The position numbers and the translations under genes were made by a program. Shown here piece by piece: positions 23,693 to 32,612 of a DNA stretch of 64,000 nt (position 1 is its first letter; every line of letters begins with the position of its first letter). The notes under the pieces were generated by a model that saw nothing but the letters and a program-made list of their open reading frames with translations, was not told the DNA's origin and did no database searches. This DNA is from Pseudomonas sp. SCB32 (GTDB taxonomy: Bacteria; Pseudomonadota; Gammaproteobacteria; Pseudomonadales; Pseudomonadaceae): positions 2,728,001 to 2,792,000 of the forward strand of contig NZ_CP045118.1 of the NCBI RefSeq assembly GCF_009189165.1, read 5' to 3'.

Positions 23693-26600
23693 ATGGTGAC
23701 ACCGCTCGGCTTTCTTCAACGTCTGCGACTGCGTACCCGCCTGGTGCTGGGTTTTGGCGGACTGCTGCTGTTGGCGTTCTTCCTCGGTTTGTACAGCCTG
23801 AACGTGCAGCGCCAGCAGAACCTGCAGATCAACCAGATCTACGAGAAGGAAATGCTCGGCCTCTCGCACATCGAGGCCGCCCGTGTCGCGTTGGCGGGCA
23901 TGGGGCGCAACGTCAGGCAGATCGTGCTGGCCCCCGACGAGAGCGGCAAGCAACAGGCGCTCCGGGAATTCAACGAGGGCAAGGCGACCCTGCGCGAGGA
24001 AATCGAGCAGGCGCGCCCGCTCATCTACCGCACGAGTGCCCTGCAGGGGCTGGTGCGTTTCGAGGGCGCCTACGAGGAATACCAGGACCAGGTGAAGCAC
24101 GTCCTGGAGTTGAACGACCAGCGCATCAACGGCGGCAAGGCCAGTGACCTTGCGGCTAGCGCCTTGCTCTCGTCCACGGCGTTGCAGCGTCCCGGCGAGG
24201 TGGCCAACCAGGCGTTGGCCGAGGTCGCCCAGATCAAGCGCGCGGGCGCCGATCTGGAAGTGAACATGGCCTCGGAGCGTTTTCACCGCAGCGTCCAGCT
24301 GACCTTCTGGCTGCTGGCGCTGGGGCTGGGCGGTGGCGTGCTGTTCGGCGTACTGATCAGCCTGTCGATCCGCCGCCCGGCCGATCTGCTGCGTTTTTCG
24401 GTCGATTCGCTGAGCAAGGGGGAGCTGGACGTCGAAGTACCGTTCCAGGACTACCCCAACGAAGTCGGTGAGCTGGCGCGGGCGATCACCGCCTTGCAGT
24501 CCGAGGCCCGGCAGATGGCCAGCCAGCGCTGGGTGAAGACCCAGGTGGCGACCCTGAGCAGCGAGATGCAGTCCGTCGCCGGCTCGGCGGAGCTGGGTGA
24601 CCGGATTCTGGCGGCGTTGGCGCCGCCCCTGGCACTGCGACGCGCCTCGGTGCATGTTCACGAGGAGTCCAGCGATGAGCTGGTATTGCTGGGCAGCTAC
24701 GCGGCGCCTCCCGCGCTGCCCCGGCGTTTGCCCATGGGGCAGGGGCTGATCGGGCAGTGTGCGAAGCAGCGGCGGCCGATCCAGCTGCGCGATCCCGAGC
24801 CCGCCCTGGAGGGTGAATACGCGCCACCGCAGTTCCTTGAAGTGCTGCCGCTGATACACGGCGAGCGCATGGTCGGCGTGCTTGCACTGGAGGTTCTGGA
24901 TGGCTTCAGCCCGAGCCGGCGGACGCTGCTCGACGAGTTCCTGCCGTTGCTCGCCATGAACCTGGAAATCCTCGAACGCACCTCGCGCACCGAGCAGCTG
25001 CTGGCGGAAACCCTCACCCAGGCCGAGTTGATGGAGCGCCAGGCGTCCGATCTTCAGGCACAGAAGCACGAGCTGGAATCCCGGCAGCAGGAAATCCAGG
25101 CGACCAAGGCCTGGTACCAGGGCATCCTCGAATCGGCGCCGGACGGCATGCTGGTGGTGGAACAGAGCGGCCGGATCATCCTGGCCAACCCCAAGCTGGA
25201 AGTCCTCTTCGGCTATGCCCAGGGCGAACTGCTCGGGCGCTCGGTGGACGAACTGGTGCCCGAGGTTCATCGCGCCCATCATGCGCAACTACGCCAGGGG
25301 TTCATTGTGGAACAGGGCAGCCGGCAGATGGGACGAGCCATCGCCGACCTGCATGGCCTGCGCAAGGACGGCAGCCGCTTCTCGGTGGAGATCGCCCTGG
25401 CGCCGCTGCCGGACCTGCTCGGCCACGGCGTCTGCGTGTGCGCCTCGGTGCGCGACATCAGCGAGCGGCGCGCCATGGAAGCGGCCCTGCAGGAAAGCGA
25501 GAAACGCCTGCAGTACATCCTCGACTGCAGCCCGGTCAGTGTCGCCATCGCCACCGAGCGGCAGCTGCACCTGGTCAACCCGGCCTTCAACCAGACCTTC
25601 GGGCTCAGGGCTGGCGACGATGCCAGCGGGCTCTATGTCGAGGCTGCCGAGCGCGAAGCGATCTGGAGCCATATGCGGGCCGGCGAGCGGATGCTTGAAC
25701 GCGAAGTGCGCCTGTACGACAGCCAGGGCGGGGAACGGGACATCCTGGCGACCTACCTGCCGATCCATCACCACGGCGAATTCGCCGTGCTGGCCTGGCT
25801 GTACGACATCACCCAGCGCAAGCTGGCCGAGCAGCAGATGCGTCGCGCCAAGGAGCTGGCCGAGGAGGCGACGCGGGCCAAGAGCGAGTTCCTGGCCAAC
25901 ATGAGCCATGAGATTCGCACGCCGATGAACGTCATCATCGGCATGAGCAGCCTGGCCCTGAAAAGCGGGCTGGATGCGCGGCAGCACAACTACGTGAAGA
26001 AGGTGCACCGCTCCGCCGAAGGGCTGCTCGGCATCATCAACGACATTCTCGACTTCTCGAAGATCGAGGCCGGGATGATGTCGGTGGAGCACGTCGAGTT
26101 CCGTCTGGAGGATGTGCTCGAACAGTTCTCCGGCCTGGTCGGCTTCAAGGCGGAGGAGAAGTCCCTGGAGCTGCTGTTCCAGCTCAGCCACGACCTGCCC
26201 ACCGCGTTGGTGGGCGATCCGCTGCGCCTGGGCCAGGTGCTGCTCAACCTGGGCAACAACGCGGTGAAGTTCACCGATCACGGGGAGATCGTCCTCGGCA
26301 TAGAGCCGGCGGCGGTCGACGACGACGAGACGGAGTTGCACTTCTGGGTCCGCGACACCGGTATCGGCATGACCGCCGAGCAGTGCGGGCGCATGTTCCA
26401 GTCCTTCATTCAGGCCGATTCCTCGACCTCGCGGCGTTACGGCGGCACCGGCCTGGGACTGTCGATTTCCAAGAGCCTGGTGGAGCTGATGGGCGGACGG
26501 ATCTGGGTCGACAGCGAGCCGGGCAAGGGCTCGGTGTTCCACTTCCATGCGTGCTTCGGCTCTCACACAGCCGCATTGCCCCGGCGCATGCTGCGCGCGG

Positions 26601-28072
26601 ATGAGCTGCTCGGCGTGCGGGCGCTGGTGGTCGACGACAATGCCTCGGCTCGCGAGATTCTCTCGGGCATGGCGCTGAGCTACGGGCTTGAAGTGGACAT
26701 CGCGCGCAATGGCATCGAAGCGCTGGACTGGGTAAGCGATGCCGAACGGCAGGGGCTGCCGTATCAGCTCATCCTGGTGGATTGGCAGATGCCGGGCATG
26801 GATGGCATCGAAGTCGTCGCGCGGCTGCGGGAGGGCCATTGCGAGTGCGTGCCGGCGGTGATCATGGTGACGGCCTTCGGTCGCGATGAAGCCATGGATG
26901 CCGCGCAGGAACGTGGCGTCGATCTGGGCACTGTGCTGACCAAACCGGTAACGCCCTCGACCCTGCTGGAAGCGATCAACGTCGCCCTGGGCAAGGAAAG
27001 CACCGCTGAGCCGCGCAGCCGCGAACGGGACAGCGCCGCCGCCGAGGCCCTGGCCGCGGTGGCGGGTAGCCGTGTGCTGCTGGTGGAAGACAACGAGCTG
27101 AACCAGGAGCTTGCCCTGGAGCTGCTGGGCGATGCCGGCATCGAGGTGGTGCTGGCCGGCAATGGCCAGGAGGCGCTCGATCGCCTGGTGGCCGACCAGA
27201 ACTTCGACTGCGTGCTGATGGATTGCCAGATGCCGGTACTCGACGGCTATGCGGCGACCCGCGCGCTGCGCCGGCGACCGGAACTGAGCACGCTGCCGGT
27301 CATCGCGATGACCGCCAACAACATGGCCGGCGACCGGGAAGAGGCGCTGCTGGCCGGCATGAACGACCACATCTCCAAGCCGATCGACCCGCCGGCGATG
27401 TTCCTCACCTTGTCCCGCTGGCTGGCCTCTGATCAAACGGTGGGGACGACGGCGGTGGAGGCGAGCGAAGTGGAGCCTGAGGACGTCAGCCTGCCGGGCA
27501 TCGACATGCAGGCGGGCCTGGCGACCTGCTCCGGAAAGCAGTCGCTCTACGACCGGTTGCTGCGCCGCTTCCAGAGCGGCTACCGCGACTTCGTCGCGCA
27601 GTTCCAGGCCATCGATGGGCAGGGCGACCCGACGGCGGAGCGCCGTGCCGCCCATTCGCTGCGCGGCGCGGCTGCCAATATCGGCGCCCTGGCGTTGGCC
27701 GGGGTTGCGGCAGCCTTGGAGGAGGGCTGTCGCACGGAGCTGCCGGCAGAGCGTATCGCAGGCTTGCTGGCGGATGTGGGGGCCGAGCTGGACCGCGTGC
27801 AGAGTGGGCTTGCGCGCTTCCTCGGCAGCCCCGAGGCGGAGTCCACCGCCGGGAGCGTGGATCAGGGCCAGGCACCGGTCCTGATGCGCCAGTTGCGGGA
27901 CCTGCTGATGAGCAGCGATACCCGCGCGGAAGAGGTCGTCAGCCAGCTCTGCAGCCTCTATCGGGGCCGCGAGGAGGTGTCCGTCCTGCGCGAGCTGGCC
28001 ACGGCCATCGAAGACTTCGACTACGACCTGGCGCTGGAGCGTCTCGGGCAGATGCAGGGCGTCAGCTCATGA
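23693..28072 (+). CDS. hybrid sensor histidine kinase with GAF, two PAS, two receivers and HPt
   Basis: 1459 residues. Order: TM1 (about 18-36), a periplasmic four-helix-type region, TM2 (about 203-225), HAMP (about 226-280), GAF (about 295-435), a coiled coil, PAS (about 480-600), PAS (about 605-710), HisKA with His739 in [11 protein letters not shown], HATPase (about 845-955; [18 protein letters not shown]), receiver 1 (Asp1030), receiver 2 (Asp1177) and an HPt domain with His1321 ([11 protein letters not shown]). A full His-Asp-Asp-His relay is therefore on one chain. The domain set resembles BarA-type kinases with added input modules. The HD-GYP regulator upstream is a probable output, linking a periplasmic signal to c-di-GMP. 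Confidence 0.93.
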
Positions 28073-28137: not shown

Positions 28138-29601
28138 CTAGTGCGCTGCGCTGAATATCTGGAACCAGTCGGCCGCCCAGTCCAGGCGCTGATTGATGAA
28201 GCTCGCGTTGTCCGGATGCTTGTCTATCAGCTTGGGGTTCCAGGGGCTCGTGTCCCAGTCGCCAGTCGTGGCGTTCTGGGTCTGCGACTCGGGAAAGACG
28301 TAGTAGAGCGTCGTCACTGACATCCCGCTGTCAGCCTTGTGGAAGCCCGTGCTCACCGCTGAGTCGGGCAGAGCGATCCCCGATTCCGTGAGGCGGGTGG
28401 CGGCAAGCCGGTAGATGGGTTGCTGCCATGGGGCGCTGACATGGTTTGACCAGTAGCAGAGCTGCGGTCCCAGCGGGACGTTCTCGGGCACCTTCTTTAC
28501 ATAATCCGCGGGGAGATTGCAGGCCTTGTACTGGCTGAAGCCCTGATTGTCCTTGGCCGTCTGCAGGTGGATGACCATCAGTTCGGAGAGTTGGTCGCTG
28601 GCGCCTTTCGAAAGTACCAGCAGGTGATCGCTACCCCGGCTCGAAGGGGTCTTCACGTAGGCGCGCGCCTGCCAGAGTCCATCGGGCAGGAGCAACGAGC
28701 GGCTGTCGATCTCCACGTGATTGCTGAAGCTCCTGCCGGTGAAGGCGTCCAGTTGGCCGACCGAGCCGGCGCCGGTGGGCGTGTTCATCCCGCTGCCAAT
28801 GGTGAAGCGCTCGCCGGTGTAGGCGCCCTGGAAGGAGGCTGGCGTCAGTCCCGTCAGGTTTTGCAATTGGGTCATGGCCTGGTCGTAGTCCCTCGAGCCC
28901 TCCTTGAAGGCATAGAAATATCCGGGTTGCTGCTGGCATTGCTGGCAACGCGGGCGCTCGTAGCTGCGGGCCTCGACAGGGACCGAGTCGGGCAGGCCTT
29001 CGATTTCCGGCCCGTAATAACCTGTCAGGATGACCTTGCGCAGATCCACGGCCGGACGGCTCACCACCCTCCAGCGGATGGGCTCGTAGGCCATCAGGGC
29101 GAGGACCATGGGGCCGGAGGTGTCGTTCAGATAGACCGTGATGGTTCGACTCGGATGCCGATTGGCGTACTTCGAATGGCACGCCATCATGCCTTCCGGA
29201 TCGTCGCTGAATGCCCGGCAGTTGTCCCACCAGGGACGATGGTCTTCGTCTGCTGGCGTTGCGCCCTGATAAACACCGATGACATGCAGCCGGGTATTGG
29301 CGGAATAGGCCGTCAACGGCAGGGGAACGGGCGTGTCGAGCGCGGGGTCCAGCGTGCCGCGCGACGGGGGCGGACCCAGGCGCGGCGTCTGAATCGTCGC
29401 CGCAACCCCCATGACAGCACCCGCCACTGGCGCCGTCTGGGGCGCCACTGTCGGGCTGTACTGCGCCGACGCTGTACTGGTGGGAGCTGGCGGCTTCCAG
29501 GGCGCGCACAGCACCACCAGCGCCGACGCCAGTAGCGTCAGGCACAGCGTCCAGCGCCAGGCCGGCGAGTTGTTCCACAAGCTGTCGTCAGCGTCGGCCA
29601 T
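28138..29601 (-). CDS. single-pass envelope protein of unknown function in Clp-like operon
   Basis: 487 residues. A 16-residue cytoplasmic tail is followed by one membrane helix (about 17-34) and a Pro/Ala/Thr-rich linker (35-95), so the bulk is periplasmic. The segment RLHVIGVYQG ... ITVYLNDTSGPMVLALMAYEPIRWRV (about 104-180) looks like a beta-sandwich found in other uncharacterised exported proteins. Cys128, Cys141, Cys219 and Cys222 (a CQQC pair) could form disulfides. No enzymatic motif is seen. Its ATG is only 3 bp past the stop of the AAA+ gene, making it the last gene of a tight three-gene operon. Confidence 0.75.
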   Translation of the reverse strand: MADADDSLWNNSPAWRWTLCLTLLASALVVLCAPWKPPAPTSTASAQYSPTVAPQTAPVAGAVMGVAATIQTPRLGPPPSRGTLDPALDTPVPLPLTAYSANTRLHVIGVYQGATPADEDHRPWWDNCRAFSDDPEGMMACHSKYANRHPSRTITVYLNDTSGPMVLALMAYEPIRWRVVSRPAVDLRKVILTGYYGPEIEGLPDSVPVEARSYERPRCQQCQQQPGYFYAFKEGSRDYDQAMTQLQNLTGLTPASFQGAYTGERFTIGSGMNTPTGAGSVGQLDAFTGRSFSNHVEIDSRSLLLPDGLWQARAYVKTPSSRGSDHLLVLSKGASDQLSELMVIHLQTAKDNQGFSQYKACNLPADYVKKVPENVPLGPQLCYWSNHVSAPWQQPIYRLAATRLTESGIALPDSAVSTGFHKADSGMSVTTLYYVFPESQTQNATTGDWDTSPWNPKLIDKHPDNASFINQRLDWAADWFQIFSAAH

Positions 29602-29604
29602 CGT

Positions 29605-30849
29605 TCAGTTCCGGGAGTCCTGGCCGGGAGTCGCTCGTGCCGAGAAACCCTGCTCCTCATCGAGGAACAGCTCTACCTTCATCACTCCGGTCTTCTTGGC
29701 CTCGATCAGGGAGTCGGCCAGTTGTTCCTCGATGGCCCGGATCAGGTCGCGGGAGGAGCCGAGCTTGCCAAGCTTCTGGTAACGCTTCATGAGCAGCAGG
29801 ATGATGTTGGGGTCGATACCCTGGTCGGCGACTTCCAGTCCGTAGCCGTGGATCATCTCTTCGATTTCCAGCGCCGTGACCCGGGCGATGTCGAGCCCCT
29901 TGAACGGCTGGAAGACGAAGATCCGGTCCAGCCGGTTGAGCACCTCGGGGGCGAAGCTCGCCTCGCGCAGTGTGTTCACCGCGGCTTCGCGCAGCGCATC
30001 CGGGTCCTGCGCGTACTGCTCGGAGATCTCGCTGAGGCGTTTGGTACCGGCATTGCTGGTGAGGACGAAGATGGCCGAGGTGGTGGAGACCTGATTGCTG
30101 TCGGAGCGTTCGGTGATGAAGCCGTCGTTCCAGGCCGTCAGGAAGGCCTTGAGTATGTCGGGGTGGGCCTTCTCGATTTCGTCCAGCAGCACCACGGCGT
30201 TGGGGCTGTCCTGCAGGCCGGCGGTCAGTTTGCCGTAGGTGTCGGAGCCCACGTAGCCCTTGTTCATGCCCAGAAGTTGCGACAGAGAGTGGCTGCCGGC
30301 GGCGAACTGGGTCATGTCGAAGTGCAGAAGCGGGCGCTCCAGCTCCTTGGCAAGGACCTTGGCCAGGTAGGTCTTCCCGGTGCCCGGCGGGCCCGCCAGC
30401 AGGAATACCCCCACGGGCTTGCCTCGCTGGGACAGTGCCAGGCGTCGACGTATCTGCGCGGCGATGTCATCGCAGACGGCATCCTGGCCGATGATCCGCT
30501 GCTTGAGCGCGGCGGCCAGGCTCTTGGCGTCGATGAAGATCGCGCTTTCCTGTTGCTCCAGCCCTTCTTCCAGCGCCTGCTTGTTGGTGAGTCTGTCCAG
30601 TATGTCCATGAGGAGCCTCGATTGCAGAGCGGTTGGCAGTCGTTCGTGAAAGTGCAGCCATCCCAGCAGCAGGAGCAGCCAGCCGAGCAGCGCCGCGGCG
30701 GCCAGGTACCAGGCCAATGCGCGAAGGCTCGACAGCAGGGAGGAAATGAGCGGTGGCTGAGGCCAGTGGTTCTCGATGAACTGGAAGAGCATCGTGAACA
30801 CCATGATCGCGAACAGCAGTGGCATGTACCGGATGATCCAGTTCAGCAT
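29605..30849 (-). CDS. membrane-anchored Clp-like AAA+ ATPase
   Basis: 414 residues from the ATG at 30849; longer frames add an Arg/His-rich non-homologous stretch. Two N-terminal membrane helices (about 5-25 and 44-66) precede one AAA+ module of the ClpA/ClpB D2 type: Walker A GPPGTGKT (153-160), aromatic pore loop GYVG (198-201), Walker B VVLLDE (219-224), sensor 1 LTSNAG (263-268), arginine finger near RLDRI (306-310), sensor 2 SSRDLIRAIE and a D2-small domain. The pore loop implies polypeptide threading. There is no ClpN repeat domain, D1 module or obvious ClpP-docking loop. It lies between two periplasm-facing single-pass proteins. Confidence 0.85.
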   Translation of the reverse strand: MLNWIIRYMPLLFAIMVFTMLFQFIENHWPQPPLISSLLSSLRALAWYLAAAALLGWLLLLLGWLHFHERLPTALQSRLLMDILDRLTNKQALEEGLEQQESAIFIDAKSLAAALKQRIIGQDAVCDDIAAQIRRRLALSQRGKPVGVFLLAGPPGTGKTYLAKVLAKELERPLLHFDMTQFAAGSHSLSQLLGMNKGYVGSDTYGKLTAGLQDSPNAVVLLDEIEKAHPDILKAFLTAWNDGFITERSDSNQVSTTSAIFVLTSNAGTKRLSEISEQYAQDPDALREAAVNTLREASFAPEVLNRLDRIFVFQPFKGLDIARVTALEIEEMIHGYGLEVADQGIDPNIILLLMKRYQKLGKLGSSRDLIRAIEEQLADSLIEAKKTGVMKVELFLDEEQGFSARATPGQDSRN

Positions 30850-30860
30850 TGGCTGGCCAC

Positions 30861-31478
30861 TCAGAAGGTGACGGGAACTTGCAGGGACTGCCCCGGCTCG
30901 ATCACCGGAAGCGATAGCGCGACGACGCCGCTGCGCAGGCCCAGGGTGATGCCACCGCCGCCATCGTAGACACCGCGAATGGTGATGCTCGAGCTGGCAT
31001 CGACGGGGACGGCGAAGCGGACCGCTTGCTTGACGATCGGGTAGTCGAGTTCGTAGCCGGCGGAGGAAATGTGTACGACATCGCCGTCCTGCGTGGCGAA
31101 GTCCCACAGCTCGATCCAGGCCAGCGTGCTTTGCGTGCCGCTGCTGCCAGGGCTGGAGAGCAGATCGCGCTTGAGCGCGTCGCGCTGGACGGTGGTGAGC
31201 TTCATCGTGGCCAGCGCGGTATCGATCTGGTTCATCGGTACCGGCGTCAGCTTGACCGCTTTCGTTGCCGCGAATTGTTCGGTCAGCTGGGACCGGGTGC
31301 TCGCCGAAATGGAATCGCTCGACGATGGGTCGAACAGTGCGCTCAGGGCCGCGCCGCCGCCCAGGATCAGGACCAGTGCGGCCACGGCGAAGGCGATCTT
31401 CCGATTGCTCCTGCGGGGCTGGCCTTGAGGTGCCGGCTGACTGAGGCCCTCTTGGGGCAGCGGCTCCAGATGCTTCAT
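30861..31478 (-). CDS. single-pass envelope protein, first gene of Clp-like operon
   Basis: 205 residues. A basic, Pro-rich cytoplasmic head (1-27) is followed by one membrane helix (about 28-47) and a periplasmic domain. The C-terminal half has a beta-rich pattern: LAWIELWDFATQDGDVVHISSAG, then ITIRGVYDGGGGITLGLRSG. The WDxxxxDGD motif with a following Gly-rich strand hints at an Ig-like or calcium-loop beta fold, but I do not recognise the family. It ends 11 bp before the AAA+ start. Promoter signals should lie in 31479-31620. Confidence 0.7.
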   Translation of the reverse strand: MKHLEPLPQEGLSQPAPQGQPRRSNRKIAFAVAALVLILGGGAALSALFDPSSSDSISASTRSQLTEQFAATKAVKLTPVPMNQIDTALATMKLTTVQRDALKRDLLSSPGSSGTQSTLAWIELWDFATQDGDVVHISSAGYELDYPIVKQAVRFAVPVDASSSITIRGVYDGGGGITLGLRSGVVALSLPVIEPGQSLQVPVTF

Positions 31479-31673: not shown

Positions 31674-32612
31674 TCACGCATTCTCCTTGGGGAAGTCCAG
31701 CGGCGGCTGATCCAGGTCGATGGCGCTCTGGGTGGTGGCGGTGACACGCGCCTTGAGCCATTCGCTGAAGGCTTTCACCACGGCGCGTTCGGCCTTCACC
31801 GGGTCGGTCACCAGGTAATAGCCACGGTTGGACTGGATGGTGATGTCGAAGGGGCGCACCAGCAGGCCACGGCTCAGGGAATCGCCGCTGAGCAGGTTGT
31901 CGCCGATGGCCACGCCCTGGCCGGCGATGCAGGCGGCGATGGTGCTGGTGGCATCGGCGAACAGCACGCCCGAGGTAAACTCGATGTCCCGCGCGCCCAC
32001 GGCGCCCAGCCAGAGACGCCAGTCGGCGAGGTCGTTCATGTGCAGCAGGGTATGGCCGGAAAGGTCCGCTGGGACCTTCAGGCCGTTGCGGGCGTTGAGC
32101 AGCCGAGGGCTGCAGACCGGGAAGAAGTGCAGGGCGACTATGGGTTCGACGATCTGGTTCGGCCAGTCGCCGGTGCCGTAGGCAATGAACAGATCGGCCT
32201 CCGCCGCGCGGGTGTCCTGCGGCGTTCGGGGCGTGACCACGTGCAGTTGTACCTGCGGGTATTGCGTGAGGAAGTCGCCCAGGTGCTGGCACAGCCAGTA
32301 GGTGGCGAACCCCGGATTGCAACTGACACACAGGCGGCCGATGACCTGCTGCTCGTCGAAGCTGGTGCCGGCCAGTTGCACCTCGGCGAGGATGCGCCGC
32401 ACGTCGCGGGCATAGCGCTCGCCCCGGTAGGTAAGGCGTATGCCGCGCCCGGTGCGCTCGGTGAGGGCGAAGCCCAGGCGCTCCTCCAGGGTCGCGATGC
32501 GATGGCTTACCGCGCTGCGGGTGAGGTTCAGCTCGGTGGCAGCGGCGGAGACGCTGCCCAGCCGGGCCACGGCGTCCAGCGCACGCAGGGCGGTCATCGA
32601 GGGGTAGTGCAT
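31674..32612 (-). CDS. LysR family transcriptional regulator (GcvA-like)
   Basis: 312 residues. MTALRALDAVARLGSVSAAATELNLTRSAVSHRIATLEERLGFALTERTGRGIRLT is a GcvA-branch LysR HTH; the effector domain runs from about residue 90 with ADLFIAYGTGDWP and a C-terminal LLVRPFDITIQSNRGYYLV. It is divergent from the M20-family hydrolase gene at 32755 and very probably regulates it. Confidence 0.92.
   Translation of the reverse strand: MHYPSMTALRALDAVARLGSVSAAATELNLTRSAVSHRIATLEERLGFALTERTGRGIRLTYRGERYARDVRRILAEVQLAGTSFDEQQVIGRLCVSCNPGFATYWLCQHLGDFLTQYPQVQLHVVTPRTPQDTRAAEADLFIAYGTGDWPNQIVEPIVALHFFPVCSPRLLNARNGLKVPADLSGHTLLHMNDLADWRLWLGAVGARDIEFTSGVLFADATSTIAACIAGQGVAIGDNLLSGDSLSRGLLVRPFDITIQSNRGYYLVTDPVKAERAVVKAFSEWLKARVTATTQSAIDLDQPPLDFPKENA

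Follow-up and report, generated by a model that had tools for sequence, protein, structure and literature searches.

The stretch of DNA analysed here, called the window below, comprises 64,000 nucleotides of contig NZ_CP045118.1 from Pseudomonas sp. SCB32, whose 6.3 Mb genome is a single contig, and the coordinates of the gene set are positions within that stretch. It carries three minus-strand genes, named A, ATPase and C and separated by gaps of 11 bp (A to ATPase) and 3 bp (ATPase to C), whose open reading frames (ORFs) were found where a first-pass annotation, made from the letters alone, had placed them (Table 1). The N-terminal membrane anchors which it had proposed, numbering one, two and one, agree with hydropathy, since there is one strong hydrophobic segment in A (hydropathy window at residue 28), two in the ATPase (at residues 4 and 44) and one in C (at residue 17). 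A second, marginal hydropathy window of A (1.51, residue 175) falls inside the predicted beta-sandwich. The guanine-cytosine content of the set (63-66%) lies near that of the window (65%), so that composition gives no sign of recent import. A sigma-70-like promoter was looked for at the gene set and none was found, and the sole terminator-like site there scores below the shuffled mean.

Table 1. Genes and features of the three-gene set (positions in the window)
Feature	Position	Strand	Description
Gene A	30861..31478	minus	205 aa; predicted cytoplasmic tail, one membrane helix, periplasmic helical hairpin and beta-sandwich
A residues 1-27	31398..31478	minus	Tail starting MKHLEPLP; predicted cytoplasmic; putative pore handle (proposal)
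A residues 118-204	30867..31127	minus	Predicted beta-sandwich with WDxxxxDGD
ATPase gene	29605..30849	minus	414 aa; single-domain AAA+ (AAA_2, Clp D2-like), two predicted membrane helices
ATPase residues 4-66	30652..30840	minus	Two predicted membrane helices and intervening loop
ATPase Walker A GPPGTGKT	30370..30393	minus	Residues 153-160
ATPase aromatic pore loop KGYVG	30247..30261	minus	Residues 197-201
ATPase Walker B VVLLDE	30178..30195	minus	LLDE ends at residue 224
ATPase arginine-finger segment LNRLDR	29923..29940	minus	Residues 304-309
Gene C	28138..29601	minus	487 aa; single helix, two predicted periplasmic domains
C residues 8-16 LWNNSPAWR	29554..29580	minus	N-terminal motif; LWxRAPxWR in many relatives
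C residues 17-35	29497..29553	minus	Predicted membrane helix
C residues 100-272	28786..29304	minus	Betaglycan/endoglin orphan-domain-like module
C residues 293-487	28141..28725	minus	PsbP/Mog1-like domain; part common to most relatives

The ATPase and its two partners

The ATPase contains one AAA_2 stretch (residues 144-309, Pfam E 2.1e-36) and no second AAA+ stretch, and its nearest solved chains are the second AAA+ domains of ClpE, ClpC, ClpB and ClpA, which bears out its earlier description as a D2-type module standing alone. In an alignment of the window copy with 23 chosen relatives, 62-86% identical, the residues G153-G156, K159, T160, K197-Y199, G201, L221-E224, N305, R306 and R309 are invariant, so that the Walker A, Walker B, arginine-finger and GYVG-type pore-loop elements noted at first sight are common to all 24 sequences. 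The AAA domain is presumably cytoplasmic, given its requirement for ATP and the strongly basic stretch that follows the second helix in Acetobacteraceae copies, and its ring would be a hexamer.

The protein resembles the second AAA+ domain of ClpA, ClpB, ClpC and ClpE in AAA_2, the Walker motifs, the arginine-finger segment and the pore loop, but it differs from all four in having a single AAA+ domain with two predicted membrane helices. It stays far under the NCBIfam cut-offs for ClpA (170.5 against 993.15 bits), ClpB and ClpV (139.6 against 884.95), and no cut-off is reached among the matches listed (25 of 69 models); assignment to the Clp/Hsp100 unfoldases ClpA, ClpB, ClpC and ClpV was rejected for its one domain and its scores below the equivalog cut-offs. 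FtsH and the mitochondrial i- and m-AAA proteases share with it an AAA+ domain placed after N-terminal membrane helices, as judged by hydropathy and with the cytoplasmic side presumed. However, HExxH was looked for in the ATPase and not found, the FtsH model gives 21.6 bits against a cut-off of 600, and an FtsH-type protease was rejected for want of the zinc protease domain. No peptidase family appears among the matches listed (25 of 40 Pfam families).

ClpE and ClpC work with ClpP, and as they are the best solved relatives, the ATPase could be imagined as an unfoldase feeding a separate peptidase such as ClpP. We regard this as very improbable: the strings IGF, IGL, LGF and VGF were looked for in the ATPase and none was found, a string test that agrees with the earlier remark that no ClpP loop is evident, and those of the widely recurring neighbour clusters that were read, by eye only, do not look peptidase-like. 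A peptidase-like ORF does follow the set in two Dyella loci, again as read by eye. Sources named in the ATPase search listing include Pseudomonas, Methylomonas, Accumulibacter and Desulfobulbus. A Microvirga plasmid (L129, 3758-4996) encodes a 48% relative with a hydrophobic N-terminus and no A or C annotated alongside, so that ATPases of this kind seem to form a wider family.

The first-pass annotation had found no recognised domains in either partner, and Pfam indeed matches no family in A or C of the window. Structure comparison of a model of whole C nevertheless divides it into two predicted periplasmic domains. Residues 100-272 match the fold of the betaglycan/endoglin orphan domain with 9-17% identity, a likeness that, for a protein predicted in the bacterial periplasm, we do not take as shared ancestry or ligand; residues 293-487 may have, on a weaker match, the PsbP/Mog1 fold of DcrB, EagR/SciW and Tsi3. 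As for A, the WDxxxxDGD pattern remarked on earlier is present in the window copy but is not kept in aligned Acetobacteraceae copies, and is thus not essential to the family. The A tail before the helix has a median of 28 residues (n=63; 23-38 in 50 of them, range 0-88, start codons being uncertain) and begins MKHLEP in much of the nearest clade, and the C tail has a median of 15 (n=52), with the motif abutting the helix. The beta domain of A, with DGD...GGGGIT, also occurs in longer proteins with a different N-terminal half (P0181 and P0182).

A conserved unit with an exchanged periplasmic part

A survey of near relatives covered 81 ATPase loci, namely the window and the best 80 of 196 relatives (203 pattern sites), 42 of these 80 belonging to Acetobacteraceae. 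With hidden Markov models for A and C and a motif pattern built from members of the survey, the pattern being written after their inspection, A, C and motif were found together in 66 of the 81 loci, which makes the set more than chance. Ten loci have C with the motif and no A; the remainder comprise one with A and C without the strict motif (L021), one with A alone at a contig end (L046), one with C alone (L040) and two with none (L041 and L043). Loci L061 and L065 also have A, beyond the distance limit (E 2e-28 and 5e-32). In the final count A is present upstream in 70 loci and absent in eight (L037-L039 and L041-L045), while contig ends make it untestable in three (L031, L040 and L048). An ORF lies directly downstream of the ATPase in 80 loci, the remaining one being at a contig end. 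On gene order and profile matches, A, ATPase and C form a conserved unit that is co-inherited: partners adjoin the ATPase in most loci and the search for known systems homologous to the set found none, so that neither outcome named in the first-pass annotation as refuting its proposal occurred. Tandem C-type genes, each with the motif, occur in L030 (11236-13008), L039 (3735-5571) and L044.

The motif was located in the first downstream ORF of 72 of 78 loci and, with a wider look, is strict in 76 of 81; in L040 it is visible by eye behind an over-long start. Among 1212 other ORFs the pattern matches six, four of which are C genes. In 150 Acetobacteraceae genomes 31 of the 44 exact pattern sites fall in C and 13 elsewhere (a reversed-pattern control gave nine); four of these 13 lie in an ORF of at least 60 aa, and none resembles, by eye, a membrane protein with an N-terminal motif.

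The motif before the membrane helix persists while the rest of C is swapped between lineages. C scores at least 65 bits, including the second, PsbP/Mog1-like domain, in 68 of the 81 loci, and in ten others (L030, L031, L037-L040, L042, L044, L045 and L047) the profile match is almost confined to N-terminal positions 3-77, the second C copy of L030 having one additional short match. The window and its nearest relatives carry the extra 100-272 module ahead of the shared domain, the Rhodopila C (L047) has seven Sel1 repeats after the N-terminal segment (E 1.2e-57), and what follows it in the Mesorhizobium C (L042) looks Ig-like (Big_9, E 0.013, short of the cut-off). The two tandem C copies of Cardiobacterium (L030) bear a domain that is PA14-like, one member giving a Pfam value of 0.0064, again short of the cut-off. 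L037, L038, L040, L043 and L045 have another small unnamed domain in common with the tandem genes of L039 and L044. The PA14-like part of L030 is 38% identical to a lipoprotein (L010, E 2e-25) in which the 100-272 module is present as well (29%, E 6e-10), so neither module is confined to the operon. This gene (L010, 454-1995) and a second (L011, 277-1989) encode lipoprotein-like products with PA14-like and orphan-domain-like modules; the two genomes concerned belong to the window's family and gave no further match to C. The PsbP/Mog1-like domain also occurs without the motif: three successive genes of L106 (3729-6169) carry it, and in L107 (2671-4053) it follows a stretch, on which Pfam is silent, that to us resembles a ClpP-like domain of the periplasm.

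The set is rare, with two carriers in 349 genomes across the phylum, the window's genome included (five candidates scored per genome). Among 198 Pseudomonadaceae genomes (E 1e-5, single-sequence queries) A was detected in the window's genome only, and C in that genome together with two module-only matches elsewhere; a second C copy was sought in the window genome and none was found, one further match standing at E 0.2. In the ATPase tree the window copy is closest to Pseudomonas copies. Another Pseudomonas ATPase (L032) clusters with those of Burkholderiaceae, and two from contigs assigned by binning to Nitrospirota (L027) and Acidobacteriota (L029) fall among proteobacterial ATPases; provided that the binning is correct, this suggests that the set has spread horizontally. 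The earlier proposal of general envelope protein extraction or quality control draws on a Clp-like ring that has predicted membrane helices and on partners that face the envelope. We find no specific support for it and hold it to be markedly improbable, since the sporadic distribution and the exchanged partner domains suit a more specialised task, and a constant N-terminal segment followed by exchanged periplasmic domains, beside a constant motor, is more in keeping with a dedicated receptor or docking partner.

Degenerate ATPases in Acetobacteraceae

The 150 genomes, whose family is taken to be Acetobacteraceae because one of them (G631) has an ATPase identical to that of Saccharibacter L091, were drawn evenly from a larger number and searched with limits of E 1e-80 for the ATPase and 1e-6 for A and for C. 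The ATPase was found in 31 genomes, A in the same 31, and C in those 31 and ten more. In one of the 31 (G655) the C gene is broken up among several frames, next to an A and an ATPase that look intact (L114, 3829-4792). Of the ten additional genomes, four (G592, G600, G646 and G665) have C with the motif, with AA instead of AP in G665, beside a degenerate ATPase beyond the 1e-80 limit. In G580 the C match begins at a contig end, in G543, G594 and G606 the second C domain sits in other proteins, none with the motif, and G570 and G611 were left out of the locus comparison. A was sought in the stretches and whole genomes of the four with degenerate ATPases and was not found.

All four degenerate ATPases have lost the GY of the pore loop and changed the Walker A threonine, and the Walker B aspartate, the sensor asparagine and R306 are each lost in three. 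Where six intact copies from acetic acid bacteria have invariant columns, the degenerate ones retain 64% of those in the membrane part and 62% of those in the linker, as against 38% for the AAA core and 54% for the C-terminus. Nonsynonymous divergence (dN) between two degenerate copies of one genus is 0.42 with synonymous divergence (dS) saturated, and between the degenerate copy of G646 and that of G561, a genome of the same genus with all three genes intact, dN is 0.36 and dS 2.7; by this comparison the degenerate ORFs look constrained. With C and its motif kept and A missing beside ATPases lacking the pore loop, contact between C and the ATPase would be independent of the pore, whereas A would need it.

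The same loci bear on two other readings. C itself might be the substrate, its motif being a tag for the ring to grip and extract it, with A as adaptor. The motif is near-universal and N-terminal, as this would require, but it lies against the helix on a short tail and persists beside ATPases without a pore loop, so that we consider C as substrate distinctly improbable. Alternatively, the set might be a receptor-controlled switch without threading, in which C, on sensing a ligand in the periplasm, governs the ATP state of the ring, much as membrane cofactors control torsins, and the ring in turn signals or does remodelling within the membrane. Both the receptor-like variation of C and its persistence beside four degenerate ATPases speak for such a switch. 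PMC5425593 describes torsins as Clp relatives under the control of type II membrane cofactors, without an aromatic pore loop and with an arginine finger supplied by an AAA-like cofactor. The set resembles torsin with LAP1/LULL1 in pairing a Clp-related ATPase at the membrane with single-helix partners; however, the aromatic pore loop is kept in 24 of 24 aligned ATPases, which favours threading, an arginine-finger segment (LNRLDR) is present in the ATPase itself, the partner models are mainly beta and the compartment differs. A torsin/LAP1 system was rejected on the pore loop and LNRLDR, and the switch appears unlikely to us.

A proposed trans-envelope motor

We think it quite possible, though short of probable, that the three-gene set is one machine, in which a membrane-bound Clp-type motor has C docked by its motif and A as the pulled part. 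The ATPase would be held in the inner membrane by its two predicted helices with both partners facing the periplasm, and pulling driven by ATP on the cytoplasmic side would move or remodel an envelope assembly. The C motif would dock C onto the membrane or linker part of the ATPase, leaving its outer domain as the receptor or binding end. More speculatively, A would be the moving part, its cytoplasmic tail of about 28 residues being gripped in the ATPase pore so that A is pulled or released on cue without proteolysis; of this role we are less sure than of the docking of C. For comparison, a review (PMC5438985) puts at about 20 the number of projecting residues that AAA proteases of the mitochondrial inner membrane require. 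The frame of a cytoplasmic motor with a periplasmic assembly, already put forward in the first-pass annotation, stands, supported by a Clp D2-like ATPase, predicted helices and two co-inherited, envelope-facing partners.

Several observations weigh against this machine. About half of the 80 relatives are Acetobacteraceae, so that the loci are not independent, and L021, L041 and L043 have a degenerate motif. The eight loci without A, in two clades, have ATPases that score as the others do, and in them the ATPase must have a function that does not involve A. Disorder of the A tail is not supported by the structure model, whose confidence is low over the tail but also over the membrane helix, a helix that is not formed in the model. 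The degenerate ATPases keep Lys159 in all four copies, R309 in three and the Walker B glutamate in two, so nucleotide binding may persist and the four may still be active. Their dN (0.36-0.42) exceeds that of flanking genes (0.05-0.22), with C at 0.28-0.40, and they sit on long branches, a caution on the at least two origins of degeneration that the tree requires. The disappearance of A, like that of catalysis, could simply reflect decay of small genomes. Moreover, A looks broken beside an intact ATPase in G631, so A can go first; this case and the eight A-less loci weaken the dependence of A on the pore.

A larger proposition, which we judge somewhat unlikely, is that of a new class of trans-envelope motor, with a single-ring Clp ATPase, interchangeable receptors attached through the nine-residue docking code LWxRAPxWR, A as a dedicated single-helix lever hauled by its tail so that cytoplasmic ATP would do mechanical work in the periplasm, and a dead, poreless ring kept as scaffold in some small-genome lineages. 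AAA+ motors and membrane tethering are known, but to our knowledge the composition of the set of A, ATPase and C is not, and no description of it was found in the open-licence literature searched, in line with the first-pass annotation, which knew of no such system. If the proposal is true, ATP-driven protein remodelling reaches the periplasm, a compartment without ATP, through a Clp-type ring rather than FtsH, and evolution has refitted one receptor port with unrelated domains. The docking motif, the A tail and the naturally poreless ATPases offer direct handles for testing it.

As to the genes around the set, Acetobacteraceae loci adjoin four clusters (c7, c8, c10 and c11) that recur in 25-33 loci and that we take from their sequences to be infB, a ylxR-like gene, nusA and rimP. 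In the window a LysR-like regulator (31674-32612, minus strand) lies just upstream of A, and the same broad LysR cluster (c4) adjoins the operon convergently in many Acetobacter loci, which may be chance because LysR genes are common. On the other side a hybrid sensor histidine kinase of 1459 aa (23693-28072, plus strand) converges with C, with 65 bp between their ends, and contains 4HB_MCP, GAF, PAS, HisKA, HATPase, two receiver and Hpt domains.

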